In this document: positions 10,525 to 15,067 of the stretch, one piece after another | How the letters are laid out: each line of letters begins with the position of its first letter | How positions within the stretch are numbered: the stretch's first letter is position 1 | Source: Aquirufa lenticrescens | Lineage (GTDB): Bacteria; Bacteroidota; Bacteroidia; Cytophagales; Spirosomataceae | Assembly (NCBI RefSeq): GCF_019916085.1 | Contig: NZ_CP049834.1 | Location: forward strand, 1,874,501-1,938,500 | Direction: 5' to 3' | DNA: 64,000 nt | Position numbers and translations under genes: made by a program | Notes under the pieces: generated by a model | The model's input: only the letters and a program-made list of their open reading frames with translations | Databases searched by the model: none | Told to the model about the DNA's origin: nothing

Positions 10525-11771
10525 TGTCATCTATTCTAGCTCAATTTCAACGTACCCGTTTTGCAGCGTCCTCTTTAGCGATGGCTAGTGGGGAATCTCG
10601 GAATAGGGTTTTGGCTAGTATTGCTGAGTTGATTCGTGTGAATTCTTCGGAAATTTTACGAGAAAATCAACAGGATTTAGATCAAATGGCGATCGATCAT
10701 CCCATGCGAGATCGACTTCTATTAACCCAAGATCGATTAGATGCTTTAGCTTTAAGCGTCCTTTCTGTGATGCAATTACCAGATCCAACTGGTCAGGTTT
10801 TATCGAAGAAAATGCTTCCGAATGGACTTGACTTGTCTAAAATAACGGTGCCGCTTGGAGTGGTGGGTGTTATATTTGAATCACGGCCGAATGTAACCAT
10901 CGACGTGGCTTCACTATGCATTCGCTCTGGGAATGCGGTGGTATTACGGGGTGGATCGGATGCTTTTCACACGAATACCATTTTAGTTAAATTGATTCAT
11001 CTAGCGCTTGAAAAACACGGATTTTCGACGGATTTGGTTTATTTGATGCCCACGGATCGTGTGCACGTAACGACTCTTTTGACAGCGGTTAAGTACATTG
11101 ACGTGATTATCCCACGAGGTTCTGAAGCCTTAATTCAGCGGGTTCGCAAAGAATCTTTGGTGCCTACGATTGAAACAGGCGCTGGCGTTTGCCATACCTA
11201 TGTGGCAGCCTCGGCTGATCTAGCAATGGCAGTTAACATTGTTGTGAATGCCAAAGTTTCACGTCCCTCTGTTTGTAATTCATTAGACACCATCGTAGTG
11301 CATCAGTCGATAGCGGCTGAATTTCTTCCATTAGTGGCTGAACCTTTAAAAGCCCACTTGGTGAAGATTTATGCTGATTCAGCAGCTTATCGCACGTTAG
11401 AGGAAGTGGCCTATCCCTTTTTAGAAAAGGCAACGGAATCGGATTTTGGTCGTGAATTCTTAGACTTTGCTTGCTCTATTAAGGTGGTGCAGGATTTGCC
11501 TGAAGCCATTGAACATATTTCGTCTTATTCATCTAGACACTCAGAGGCAATCGTTTCAAGTGATGAAAAAGAAGCGCAGTTTTTCTTATCAACCGTGGAT
11601 GCTGCGGCCGTTTATTGGAACGCCTCGACGCGTTTTACGGATGGAGGAGAATTTGGATTAGGAACTGAAATAGGTATTTCTACTCAAAAATTACATGCGC
11701 GTGGCCCCTTCGCGTTAGAGAAATTAGTGACCGAAAAATGGATTGGAATCGGTCAGGGCCAAATCCGCTAA
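10524..11771 (+). CDS. proA: Gamma-glutamyl phosphate reductase
   Basis: This enzyme reduces gamma-glutamyl phosphate to glutamate semialdehyde with NADPH in proline biosynthesis. It has an aldehyde-dehydrogenase fold of 415 residues with the GVIFESRPNVT segment, the RGGSDA cofactor region, the catalytic Cys in SRPSVCNSLD (about residue 250) and the C-terminal GGEFGLGTEIGIST motif. The start overlaps the stop of the CotH gene (TAATG). The partner gene proB is not in this window. The 3' end overlaps that of dnaX by 4 bases in convergent orientation. Confidence 0.95.
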   Translation: MSSILAQFQRTRFAASSLAMASGESRNRVLASIAELIRVNSSEILRENQQDLDQMAIDHPMRDRLLLTQDRLDALALSVLSVMQLPDPTGQVLSKKMLPNGLDLSKITVPLGVVGVIFESRPNVTIDVASLCIRSGNAVVLRGGSDAFHTNTILVKLIHLALEKHGFSTDLVYLMPTDRVHVTTLLTAVKYIDVIIPRGSEALIQRVRKESLVPTIETGAGVCHTYVAASADLAMAVNIVVNAKVSRPSVCNSLDTIVVHQSIAAEFLPLVAEPLKAHLVKIYADSAAYRTLEEVAYPFLEKATESDFGREFLDFACSIKVVQDLPEAIEHISSYSSRHSEAIVSSDEKEAQFFLSTVDAAAVYWNASTRFTDGGEFGLGTEIGISTQKLHARGPFALEKLVTEKWIGIGQGQIR

Positions 11772-13591
11772 AACTCGTGATCTAATCCCATTCGTTGCTT
11801 CATTTCGACTAGAATAGGGTGCTTTTTAGATAAGAAATCGTATTTATCTGATTGCGTATAAATCATCTTTTTGTCCGAAACCTCACCTGCTATCAAATCC
11901 AAGCTGATATCGATAGTATCATTCTTCAGTTTTTCACGCAAAGTGCCTACTAATTCTAGCTTCAGCGAGTCATTAAACTGTTGCATTTGGACTTCACCTT
12001 CTACCTTGGTATGGATGATAGAATCGATGAGACTAATCTCACGGTTCATCATCACATATTTGTTGATGAAATTGCCCTGTTTGAATCCTTGTGCGATTTG
12101 AGTCCACACAAAATGAAGTTCTTCGTAGGTGAACGGCTCATTTTGAACTTTTCCCTGCGCAATTACCTCAGCCGCATGTTCGGCTTGACCAGTACTAACT
12201 ACTTTTTTGGCGCTACGTAATCCGTGACTCGTAGGTCTAGGGGATGTTTCAGCAGATACAACTTGAACGGGGGCTGCTTGAACGGGAGCGATCTCCTGAA
12301 CGGGAGCCGCTTGAACTGGAGTCTCCTGAACTGGTGTCGAAGCCACTGGCGCCGCTTCGGTAGAAACTACTTGAATAACGGGTTCAGCCGGAGCTACTGG
12401 AGCAGCCGAAACCGCAGCCGCAGCTATCGGTTTAGGCTCAGACTTTTTTCCGGCGCCACCCTCCACCGCAGGTTGAGATGCGGTAGGTTGGTAAACCGAC
12501 GGCAAATAGTTGATTTTCAATAAGGTCAATTCGACGTGTAAACGGGCGTTCTTCGCTGCTTTGTAATGAATCTCGCATTGAGAGCAAAGGTTCATAGCAG
12601 ATAATAAGAAGGAGGCAGACGTTTTCGCGGACTGCGCTTGAAATTTCGCCCGATTCTCTTCGCTTAATTCCATTAAGGCAAGCGTCTTCGGATCTTTGGC
12701 AAATAACAAATTACGGAAATGCTCCGATAGGCCGGCAATAAACTGCTGACCATCAAAACCCTTGCGCATAATCTCATCTAATAAAACGAGTGCGTCTGTG
12801 TGGTTTTGATTCACGAAGAAATCCGTTAATTGGAAGTAATAATCGCTGTCCAGTATGTGTAAATTTTCCAATACATCCGCGTGTCTCAGCGCATTGTCCG
12901 TGGAGAAAGTCACATTTAAGTCAAACATCGAAAGTGCATCGCGCAGACCACCATCGGCTTTGATGGAAATCAATTCCAAAGCTGCCGGTTCCGCTGTAAT
13001 CCCTTCTTTTTCCGCGATCGAAGAAAGGTGAGACGCCATATCTTTCCATTGAATGCGGTTGAAGTCAAAGATTTGGCAACGCGATAGAATCGTAGGCAAA
13101 ATCTTGTGCTTTTCCGTCGTCGCTAGAATAAAAATAGCATAGGAAGGTGGCTCCTCTAAGGTCTTTAAAAAGGCATTGAAGGCTGCTGCCGAAAGCATGT
13201 GAACCTCATCAATGATGTAAATTTTGTATTTACCGTTTTGAGGAGGATAGCGAACTTGATCGATTAGGTTCCGAATATCTTCTACCGAGTTATTCGAAGC
13301 GGCATCTAATTCGTGAATCGTTAAGGAAGTATTTTCTTGGAAAGAATGACAAGAAGTACATTTGCCACACGCTTCACCATCCGCACCTAAATCTTGGCAA
13401 TTAATTGTCTTGGCTAAAATACGGGCGCAAGTCGTTTTACCGACCCCTCTCGGGCCACAAAAAAGGAATGCTTGCGCCAGGTGATTGGACTTGATAGCAT
13501 TTTTTAAGGTGGTGGTAATGTGACTTTGGCCTACCACAGAATCGAAAAGGGTAGGGCGGTATTTACGCGCTGAAACAATAAAATTTTCCAT
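11768..13591 (-). CDS. dnaX: DNA polymerase III subunit tau (and predicted gamma)
   Basis: This is the clamp-loader ATPase of the replicative polymerase. It has Walker A GPRGVGKTT, a four-Cys zinc module (C..C..C..C between residues 64 and 80), the DEVH Walker B and the SRC sensor motif LSRCQIFDF. Domain III ends near residue 365, followed by an Ala/Pro/Val-rich linker and a C-terminal tail. ATG 13591 is chosen over the in-frame TTG at 13597, which is part of a promoter box, giving 607 residues. A candidate -1 frameshift site at codons 381-383 would give a gamma-like product of 384 residues. Confidence 0.95.
   Translation of the reverse strand: MENFIVSARKYRPTLFDSVVGQSHITTTLKNAIKSNHLAQAFLFCGPRGVGKTTCARILAKTINCQDLGADGEACGKCTSCHSFQENTSLTIHELDAASNNSVEDIRNLIDQVRYPPQNGKYKIYIIDEVHMLSAAAFNAFLKTLEEPPSYAIFILATTEKHKILPTILSRCQIFDFNRIQWKDMASHLSSIAEKEGITAEPAALELISIKADGGLRDALSMFDLNVTFSTDNALRHADVLENLHILDSDYYFQLTDFFVNQNHTDALVLLDEIMRKGFDGQQFIAGLSEHFRNLLFAKDPKTLALMELSEENRAKFQAQSAKTSASFLLSAMNLCSQCEIHYKAAKNARLHVELTLLKINYLPSVYQPTASQPAVEGGAGKKSEPKPIAAAAVSAAPVAPAEPVIQVVSTEAAPVASTPVQETPVQAAPVQEIAPVQAAPVQVVSAETSPRPTSHGLRSAKKVVSTGQAEHAAEVIAQGKVQNEPFTYEELHFVWTQIAQGFKQGNFINKYVMMNREISLIDSIIHTKVEGEVQMQQFNDSLKLELVGTLREKLKNDTIDISLDLIAGEVSDKKMIYTQSDKYDFLSKKHPILVEMKQRMGLDHEF
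12263..12334 (-). repeat. Short tandem PVQ repeats in the DnaX linker
   Basis: Five Pro-Val-Gln triplets are spaced mostly 15 bases apart (PVQET, PVQAA, PVQEIA, PVQAA, PVQVV) in the disordered linker between domain III and the C-terminal tail. They look like a locally expanded low-complexity repeat and lie beyond the predicted frameshift stop. Confidence 0.7.
12405..12464 (-). promoter_or_regulatory. Candidate programmed -1 ribosomal frameshift signal in dnaX
   Basis: Reading on the coding strand: GGAGGG (12464-12459), 9 bases, the slippery heptamer A AAA AAG in the zero frame (12449-12443), a 5-base spacer, then a stem-loop at 12437-12405. Its outer arms are GCCtAAACCG and CGGTTTcGGC, with a nested AGC/GCT pair inside. 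After a -1 slip the next codons are GTC TGA, so translation would stop at 12438 after one residue. This layout matches the known E. coli dnaX signal that makes the gamma subunit. The elements are seen directly; use in this organism is inferred. Confidence 0.72.
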
Positions 13592-13630: not shown

Positions 13631-15067
13631 TTAGGGGATTCTAATGACAGCGCTTACGGGAAAATGATCCGTTGGATAGTTGTTTTCCCAAGTCTCACTA
13701 TGGGTAGTATGTTGTAAAACGGAAGGACCATTTTTGACAAAAATATAATCAATATGTCTTCCTTCTTGTTCTTTAGTGAAGCCATTAAAGGAGCTGTATG
13801 GGCCATAGTGGCCATTTTGGCTAATTTTCTCCGCATCGATGACATGCGCTGGATTTTTTGCATCCACTAAAATTTGAATCGGTTCATCATCTGGCGTAGC
13901 ATTGAAATCACCTGTTAATATCACCGGAGATTTACCCGCGATTTCAGCTATTTTACGCAATACGAGCTTCGCACTTTCTCTGCGCGCCACCTTGCCTAAA
14001 TGATCGAAATGGGTATTGAATACGAAGAATTTTTTGCCAGTTTTAATCTCTTGAAATTGTCCCCAAGTCACCACGCGACGGCAAGCGGCATCCCAGCCAA
14101 AACCTACCTTGTCACATGAGTCTGACAACCAAAACGTTTTCTCTTGGAGCAATTTGAATTTCGATTTGCGGTACATTAAGGCAGAAAATTCTCCTTCTGC
14201 TTTCCCATCATCCCGGCCTTTCCCAAACCAGCCAAAACCCGGCAATTCCTTTTCTAAATCTGTAATTTGATGCAAGAATGCTTCTTGTAATCCAATTATA
14301 TCTGCCTGATGGTAGCGAATCAATTCCCCACAATGTTTTGCGCGGTATTTCCATTGGTTTGTGCCATCCGATTCGGTGTCTAATCGCACATTGAAAGTCA
14401 TCGCCTTGATTTGCGCTGAGGTGGTAGAAAATTGCGCTGAGGCCGCTGGGCCCGCTAATAAAAGCACAAAACAGGTGAATGCTTTTAAGATATTCATCAC
14501 CTGTGGAAATACGCGGTCGTTCTTCCCATTTTGAATGACAAAATCAGCTCCCCAAAGGTAGTTTTTAGGTTGCGGTTGCAAATCGATTATTTGCATGGTT
14601 TCCATATAACTCATACGACTTCTTTTTTGGACGTTTTGAATGCGTTCAGGTAAGGGGCAATCCACCGTGATCATCTGTGAGATGTGTTCCGGTTTTGTAC
14701 GCGGTGTGATGAGGGCGGATTCGTATAGACAAAAAGGGGCTTCAGGCGTATTTGTAATCCATTCTGCTGCCTGTGAACGAACGGCGGGATGGATAATGGC
14801 ATTAAGGTGAGCGACATCACCTGGGTATTTTTGTAGGAGGCCTTTTATCCAAGCCCGGTTGTAAGATCCATCTGGAAGATAGGATTTAGGGCCAAATTCT
14901 GCGATAATAGCTTCCTTCACCGCCTCATCCTTCTCACAAATTTCTCGCGCCACTTTGTCCGCTTCGAAAATGGGAATTCCCAGACATGAAAAAATCCGGC
15001 AAATGGTCGATTTGCCGGATCCTATTCCGCCTGTAATTCCGATGAAAGGTTTCAGGCCTGTATCCAT
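13631..15067 (-). CDS. coaE: Dephospho-CoA kinase fused in frame to an endonuclease/exonuclease/phosphatase-like domain
   Basis: Residues 1 to about 195 are dephospho-CoA kinase, the last step of coenzyme A synthesis, with P-loop GGIGSGKST and the family's LNAIIHPAVR segment. Residues 191-478 are a complete EEP-fold domain with MTFNVR, LQEAF, GDFNATPDDEP, HIDYIFVK and TDHFPVS motifs. No stop lies between them. Met191 begins MNILKAFTCFVLLLAG...AQF, a good Sec signal peptide, so an exported 288-residue EEP protein could also be made from an internal ATG at 14497. A TGA overlapping that ATG (TGATG) exists one frame away, so an indel or sequence error could explain the fusion. The start lies 4 bases after yajC. 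Confidence 0.85.
   Translation of the reverse strand: MDTGLKPFIGITGGIGSGKSTICRIFSCLGIPIFEADKVAREICEKDEAVKEAIIAEFGPKSYLPDGSYNRAWIKGLLQKYPGDVAHLNAIIHPAVRSQAAEWITNTPEAPFCLYESALITPRTKPEHISQMITVDCPLPERIQNVQKRSRMSYMETMQIIDLQPQPKNYLWGADFVIQNGKNDRVFPQVMNILKAFTCFVLLLAGPAASAQFSTTSAQIKAMTFNVRLDTESDGTNQWKYRAKHCGELIRYHQADIIGLQEAFLHQITDLEKELPGFGWFGKGRDDGKAEGEFSALMYRKSKFKLLQEKTFWLSDSCDKVGFGWDAACRRVVTWGQFQEIKTGKKFFVFNTHFDHLGKVARRESAKLVLRKIAEIAGKSPVILTGDFNATPDDEPIQILVDAKNPAHVIDAEKISQNGHYGPYSSFNGFTKEQEGRHIDYIFVKNGPSVLQHTTHSETWENNYPTDHFPVSAVIRIP

Follow-up and report, generated by a model that had tools for sequence, protein, structure and literature searches.

A very probable E. coli-type programmed −1 frameshift signal in dnaX of Aquirufa, in a family where poly-A switches appear to be common

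The dnaX gene of E. coli K-12 carries an AGGGAG element, a gap of 10 nt, the slippery heptamer A_AAA_AAG, a spacer of 5 nt and a stem of 11 bp. For Thermus dnaX, the precedent is transcriptional slippage (PMC5009743, PMC3711429). PMC5009743 also reports that a nascent RNA hairpin stimulates slippage in an insertion sequence and that the number of tRNA-Lys is tied to the choice of mechanism. A reversed dnaX, in which tau is made by the shift, exists in fewer bacteria, and among the candidates Chlorobium phaeobacteroides is mentioned, a case yet to be published whose signals resemble those of E. coli (PMC5009743). Since reversal is already stated there, it is not new as such. The dnaX clusters of PMC4066793 and PMC3711429 may include species of the Aquirufa family. 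In the open-licence literature, judged by titles, abstracts and selected passages, we did not find a description of such a cassette in Aquirufa or its family.

A related body of work concerns the Shine-Dalgarno (SD) sequence in Bacteroidia. Ribosomes of this class are reported to sequester the anti-SD via bS21, bS18 and bS6 (PMC9976891). Sequestration is also reported in PMC8710568, where the prfB frameshift is counted in 523 of 726 Bacteroidia. In F. johnsoniae the prfB shift is described as inefficient (PMC12421855). The class poses a puzzle: the anti-SD is reported to be sequestered, yet prfB keeps an SD whose working is unsettled.

We have analyzed the dnaX gene in a window of 64,000 nucleotides, the whole stretch of DNA under study. 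Its product matches NF011531, DNA polymerase III gamma/tau, over residues 1-604 (E 4e-238), and is matched by Pfam models for the AAA/clamp-loader, the lid and domain III, the last of which ends at residue 370. DnaX identity of 98% points to an Aquirufa, a freshwater bacterium, close to A. antheringensis. Just upstream of dnaX (13631-15067, minus strand) a single ORF encodes both CoaE (dephospho-CoA kinase) and an endonuclease/exonuclease/phosphatase domain, the two parts being separated by a signal-peptide-like stretch, as judged by eye. Both parts of this ORF are matched in many relatives, and the CoaE part alone is matched in L012, L030, L031, L020 and L021.

The original prediction for dnaX was an E. 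coli-style −1 cassette with similar spacings, consisting of GGAGGG, a 9-nt gap, an in-frame A_AAA_AAG, a 5-nt spacer and a stem-loop on the minus strand. All of these elements are present and their coordinates are exact, and after direct comparison with the elements of E. coli K-12 this remains the best reading of the site. The features are as follows:

11768..13591, minus strand: dnaX full-length tau reading frame, 607 aa, ATG at 13591 and stop at 11768
12438..13591, minus strand: predicted gamma-like short product of 384 residues, the first 383 read in frame 0 and the last, Val, in frame −1 ahead of TGA
12459..12464, minus strand: GGAGGG, putative internal Shine-Dalgarno-like stimulator, from sequence and conservation
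12450..12458, minus strand: gap of 9 nt between GGAGGG and the heptamer, from the sequence; 9 nt in 50 of 50 SD-class loci
12443..12449, minus strand: slippery heptamer A_AAA_AAG, codons GGA AAA AAG, 381-383 from the ATG
12438..12440, minus strand: TGA stop in frame −1, after the single sense codon GTC (12443-12441)
12438..12442, minus strand: spacer of 5 nt between heptamer and stem, from sequence and folding
12405..12437, minus strand: stem-loop GCC.AAACCG...CGGUUU.GGC with a nested inner stem, from folding
11768..12442, minus strand: tau-specific linker and C-terminal region, read only by a ribosome that stays in frame 0

The heptamer is in register for −1 slippage, since codons 381-383 read GGA AAA AAG. 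The expected −1 reading of GTC TGA, and with it a short form of 384 residues against 607, follows directly from the sequence. Because the Pfam match to domain III ends at residue 370, the short form would contain domains I-III, as had been proposed. The stem was correctly described as nine pairs around one mismatch with a nested inner stem; a scan for the lowest-energy hairpin starts this helix one base earlier, with a spacer of 4 nt. Folding of the 53 nt from the stem base gave −22.3 kcal/mol (z −1.90), a value equalled by 7 of 200 shuffled sequences. The 45 nt after the heptamer gave z −2.8 in the window and −2.3 for the identical stretch of L008, so that z is a noisy measure. Stops lie close by in both non-zero frames of the window, as expected under ribosomal and polymerase slippage alike. 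Rfam contains a dnaX element, and Rfam release 15 gave no match up to E 10 in window positions 12300-12600.

We therefore consider it very probable that the window element is an E. coli-type dnaX programmed −1 ribosomal frameshift signal. A ribosome on dnaX would meet GGA AAA AAG with GGAGGG 9 nt behind and the hairpin 5 nt ahead, and a fraction of ribosomes would slip back one base on A_AAA_AAG. These ribosomes would add one codon and terminate at TGA; their product would be a gamma-like subunit of the clamp loader that comprises domains I-III, while those that do not slip would continue to tau. The elements, their nucleotide-level conservation, the swap of the heptamer in a fixed register and a stem compensated in one part of the clade are established from the sequences; slippage itself and its efficiency at the window cassette are what we infer from them.

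For comparison with relatives, dnaX loci were gathered from genome contigs of the genus, family, order and class, a sample weighted to Cytophagales that includes a few rows of other origin (L039, L040). Domain III of dnaX was found in 305 loci (L041 and L042 failed this filter), and dropping 33 sequence duplicates left 272 unique loci. The search within the genus gave 30 loci for 38 genomes; dnaX matches in G213, G221, G222, G223 and G238 were left out, and a full dnaX was not found in G211, G232 and G237. Loci were assigned to the SD class when GGAGG precedes a heptamer of the form AAAAAAN or GGGAAAN by 8-12 nt. Where at least 9 A follow each other, this took precedence in the assignment, so that poly-A loci with an upstream SD are counted as poly-A. 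The SD class comprises 50 of the 272 unique loci, namely 37 with GGAGG and A_AAA_AAG (36 one-ORF, 1 two-ORF) and 13 with GGAGG and G_GGA_AAG (8 one-ORF, 5 two-ORF). A run of A9-A12 is found in 207 of the 272 (132 one-ORF, 74 two-ORF, 1 cut by the contig) and a run of A7-A8 in 4, while 11 belong to none of the classes (one cut by the contig end). These 11 show neither an A run of at least 7 nor an SD cassette in the region scanned; nine of them are L269, L270, L277, L315, L322, L324, L187, L199 and L113, and the remaining two are L038 and the cut L238.

The gap after the hexamer (GGAGGG in the window) is 9 nt in all 50 SD-class loci, with 7-11 allowed. Since membership of the class requires the motif, the independent counts are those per genus. 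No genus with the SD type showed another type. Loss of the heptamer in relatives had been put forward as a test of the prediction, and the outcome speaks for it: GGAGG with A_AAA_AAG is kept throughout the window's genus (33/33 loci from whole genomes, duplicates included) and in 29 of 29 named loci (L008-L036). Among unique loci the SD type is found in 6/6 of genus g36, 5/5 of g2 and 1/1 each of g6, g10 and g28. In the window's family, the unique loci from whole genomes comprise 21 of the SD type, 72 poly-A and 1 of neither. The cassette is thus not typical of Cytophagales as sampled here, where most loci examined outside the window lineage carry an A9-A12 run. An Aquirufa-type dnaX with 67-83% identity to the window is also found in metagenome bins that bear the title Spirosoma fluviale (L021, L025, L030, L031, L035), and these titles may be misassigned.

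Conservation at the nucleotide level was assessed in the Aquirufa clade (clade A, 36 sequences, Sandaracinomonas included), counting a degenerate column when its degenerate residue is conserved in at least 95% of rows. Of 263 such columns 11 are codon-invariant, and four of these 11 are the cassette codons GAG, GGA, AAA and AAG, which are unchanged in 36/36 sequences and sit in an otherwise fast-changing linker. The codon before GAG reads ACG, GTG, GCG, AAG or TCG and ends in G in 36/36, against a background share of G-ending codons of 0.20-0.28; across the 50 SD-class loci it is ACG in 24, GTG in 21, GCG in 2, and AAG, TCG and CAG in 1 each, although a final G in 50 of 50 is not an independent count here, GGAGG being part of the class definition. 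The suggestion that GGAGGG may be vestigial has become unlikely, because GAG is the sole Glu codon in 36/36 clade sequences and the preceding codon varies in residue yet always ends in G. The codon after the heptamer is TCT, CTT, CCT, GCT or TAT and is followed by GA. Since all of these end in T, the −1 TGA is kept in 36/36 unique one-ORF A_AAA_AAG loci, and the predicted stop is thereby conserved as well. A second clade of 14 sequences gives a weaker signal (30 of 266 columns invariant, including GAG and AAG of the site). Codon invariance, the kept wobble bases and the kept −1 stop speak against a mere peptide motif.

In 13 relatives G_GGA_AAG replaces A_AAA_AAG in the same register and with the same 9-nt gap. 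Six SD-class loci have a zero-frame stop directly after the heptamer (TAA in L034; TAG in L108-L111 and L114), and in five of them the −1 frame is open for 207-248 codons, while in L111 it reaches the contig end. The shift should therefore make tau in these six loci.

Pattern searches put the site into a wider context. In the 2.5-Mb genome GGAGG-N8-12-AAAAAAG occurs 6 times against 2 for the reversed control, and GGAGG-N9-11-AAAAAAG-NN-TGA occurs a single time, in dnaX, against 0. Across the class the latter pattern is present in 19 of 395 genomes (20 places) against 14 reversed places by hand count, and a spread of the A_AAA_AAG cassette across the class was rejected; of the 20 loci the own genome's site alone falls in dnaX. 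At one further place, L184, a weak match to the C-terminal part of dnaX lies about 1.3 kb away. The pattern GGAGG-N9-11-GGGAAAGTAG was found in 10 of 395 phylum genomes against 3 reversed (hand count), 0 of them in dnaX. We also considered GGAGG as a start signal and discarded this, as ATG, GTG or TTG follows 4-13 nt downstream in just 11 of 50 SD-class loci, 2 of them ATG.

Conservation of the stem, which had also been predicted, stands in part: a hairpin at or below −7.9 kcal/mol was obtained for 27 of the 36 unique one-ORF loci with A_AAA_AAG, and since 9/36 have a weak hairpin or none, the loss of the stem that was named as a possible refutation does occur in some relatives. Such a hairpin is present in 33 of all 50 SD-class loci and is weak or missing in 8 of 13 G_GGA_AAG loci. 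Folding energies were compared over 49 of 50 SD and 205 of 207 poly-A loci, rows that are related and hence not independent samples. In the SD class the mean z is −1.57 downstream (control −0.29) and −0.16 upstream (control −0.24); in the poly-A class it is −0.82 upstream (control −0.08) and −0.31 downstream (control −0.22). Two related groups share a 7-pair helix in which 2 pairs are changed on both sides (U-A to C-G, C-G to A-U), with pair counts resting on 10 rows hand-chosen from the two groups (L016, L029 and L027 left out). None of 500 shuffles reached the observed pairing and covariation score, while shuffles were as high or higher on two of the five measures, namely pairs changed on both sides (436/500) and further pair types (499/500). 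The compensated pairs represent one split between the two groups, that is, two events. Sandaracinomonas and L051-L053 have stems of unrelated sequence close to this position. In a sub-group of the genus (L045-L050) the element reads GGAGGA, followed at best by a short possible hairpin (GGC-UUCG-GCC in 5/6), which suggests a weaker or retuned signal.

Several other readings have to be weighed against a ribosomal −1 shift. RNA polymerase could slip on the A run as in Thermus and produce mixed mRNAs. In favour of this are the A9-A12 run at the same gene position in 207 of 272 unique loci and the finding that, in 131 of the 132 one-ORF poly-A loci, each of the two other frames has a stop no more than 25 codons away. 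However, the run in the window is exactly A6, the folding signal of the SD class lies downstream and that of the poly-A class upstream, and in the 13 G_GGA_AAG relatives the longest A run at the site is three. The A6 is dispensable because these relatives lack it in the same register, which speaks against polymerase slippage; on this ground we rejected it for A6 and hold it to be very unlikely. That there is no recoding at all, the motif being a conserved peptide or chance, would fit the conserved Glu and Gly-Lys-Lys residues of the clade, but it is hardly credible given loci with a frame 0 stop at the site and a codon invariance far above the gene background, four of 11 invariant columns out of 263 lying in the cassette. 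A peptide constraint was rejected on this codon-level invariance and on wobble bases that are kept under changing residues. For Sandaracinomonas limnophila (L034) only, the C-terminal part might be made by stop-restart at an overlapping TAATG with no frameshift, the second −1 frame codon being ATG. We regard this as improbable, as L034 retains GGAGG, the 9-nt gap, A_AAA_AAG and a 9-bp hairpin, and the five G_GGA_AAG two-ORF loci have no ATG among the first 40 −1 codons (GTG in L111, TTGs in L114).

A further reading accepts the frameshift and questions the role of GGAGGG, which under a sequestered anti-SD may have been retained on other grounds, for example some other contact of the RNA. It draws on the reported sequestration in Bacteroidia (PMC9976891, PMC8710568) and on the low prfB frameshifting of F. 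johnsoniae (PMC12421855). SD-like motifs (GGAG/GAGG/AGGA, 5-17 nt before starts) are not enriched in the window, with 4 of 49 ORFs against 5 of 49 in the control, and rpsU of the own genome has no SD before its start. In studies of F. johnsoniae prfB, bS21 mutants reportedly raise frameshifting. Against a role other than pairing with 16S stands that the conserved bases are exactly GGAGG, with a wobble G under changing residues and a fixed distance in all loci of the SD genera, and that GGAGG is also kept in prfB of the same genome (L340), within the SD-containing +1 site GGAGG-TAT-CTT-TGA-C. A search for 16S gave no match in the own genome, and its 3' end was found in 0 of 38 genus genomes. 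On balance we find a non-16S role of GGAGGG rather unlikely and pairing of GGAGG with the 16S anti-SD somewhat more likely than not. Besides prfB, dnaX here provides a second conserved internal SD in Bacteroidia; it lies at a −1 site, is conserved base by base, and its natural cassettes make the SD question testable.

The remaining relatives bear on the history of the E. coli-type cassette. In 168 of the 207 poly-A loci the run is exactly 10 A, near the end of domain III (e.g. L081, L127, L129, L273, L302), and a number of loci have a hairpin just upstream of the run. Most other relatives examined appear, by their sequence, to use a poly-A (Thermus-type) switch, and the Thermus precedent, the close stops and the 5' folding signal suggest that these sites slip at transcription. 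An SD-like motif lies within 18 nt upstream of 28 of the 207 poly-A sites, against 6 and 3 in control stretches; such loci include L058, L118, L119 and L122 and are possible intermediates between both mechanisms.

In a tree of the N-terminal domain, from which rows more than 97% alike within a type were left out, the SD type falls in two places, which takes 2 changes on the free tree. Apart from L113 the remaining members of the family are poly-A, and so are all outgroup rows, which were hand-picked in both trees. When all SD rows are held together, in a test from which poly-A rows of 86% or higher similarity and rows without a type were also excluded, the likelihood is 7.86 higher with p-AU 0.615. 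Two separate origins of the SD type were therefore not retained, a single clade being allowed. In the simplest history a ribosomal frameshift would have replaced an A-run slippage site once, a direction that we infer, and in the Aquirufa clade and some relatives the cassette would have taken over from an earlier poly-A switch that worked by transcriptional slippage and gave the same products. The chances are about even for the fuller account, in which, within one lineage of the window's family, ancestral A10 polymerase slippage gave way to an SD-assisted −1 frameshift, elongating ribosomes free the anti-SD and pair it with GGAGG, the heptamer was swapped and polarity was reversed, apparently twice.

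If true, an SD-assisted −1 shift by ribosomes that ignore the SD at initiation would mean that elongating ribosomes release the anti-SD. The cassette may thus show whether ribosomes thought to ignore the SD are able to make use of it while elongating. The two-ORF relatives would depend on frameshifting for tau. More broadly, two unrelated recoding mechanisms that yield one protein output, polymerase slippage and ribosome slippage, seem to have been exchanged in nature at this locus, which speaks for selection of the short DnaX form.

With E. coli dnaX the window shares the gene, A_AAA_AAG, an upstream SD-like element, a hairpin at 5 nt and a −1 TGA after one codon. There are also differences, in that the SD is GGAGGG at 9 nt and not AGGGAG at 10 nt, concealment of the anti-SD is reported for the class of the host, and in some relatives the heptamer is G_GGA_AAG or the shift is needed for the other product. 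Slippage on 9 A in Thermus thermophilus concerns the same gene with the same gamma and tau output; however, about 9 A are needed there, whereas the window has A6 with an SD and a downstream hairpin. By sequence, the Thermus thermophilus kind accounts for most of the other Bacteroidia loci examined. In the two-ORF dnaX genes of GeneTack (PMC3711429) and the Chlorobium phaeobacteroides candidate (PMC5009743), tau depends on the shift and gamma is completed in frame 0, as in the six SD-class relatives. Of the 17 GeneTack dnaX cases 12 are poly-A (PMC3711429), while dnaX of the window is a single ORF. The +1 site of prfB in Bacteroidia resembles the window dnaX in having an internal SD despite a sequestered anti-SD, but there the shift occurs at a stop codon and the SD lies 3 nt from the shift site (PMC8710568). 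Taken together, the window element very probably belongs to the E. coli dnaX kind, and the exchange of mechanisms around it is the more interesting part.
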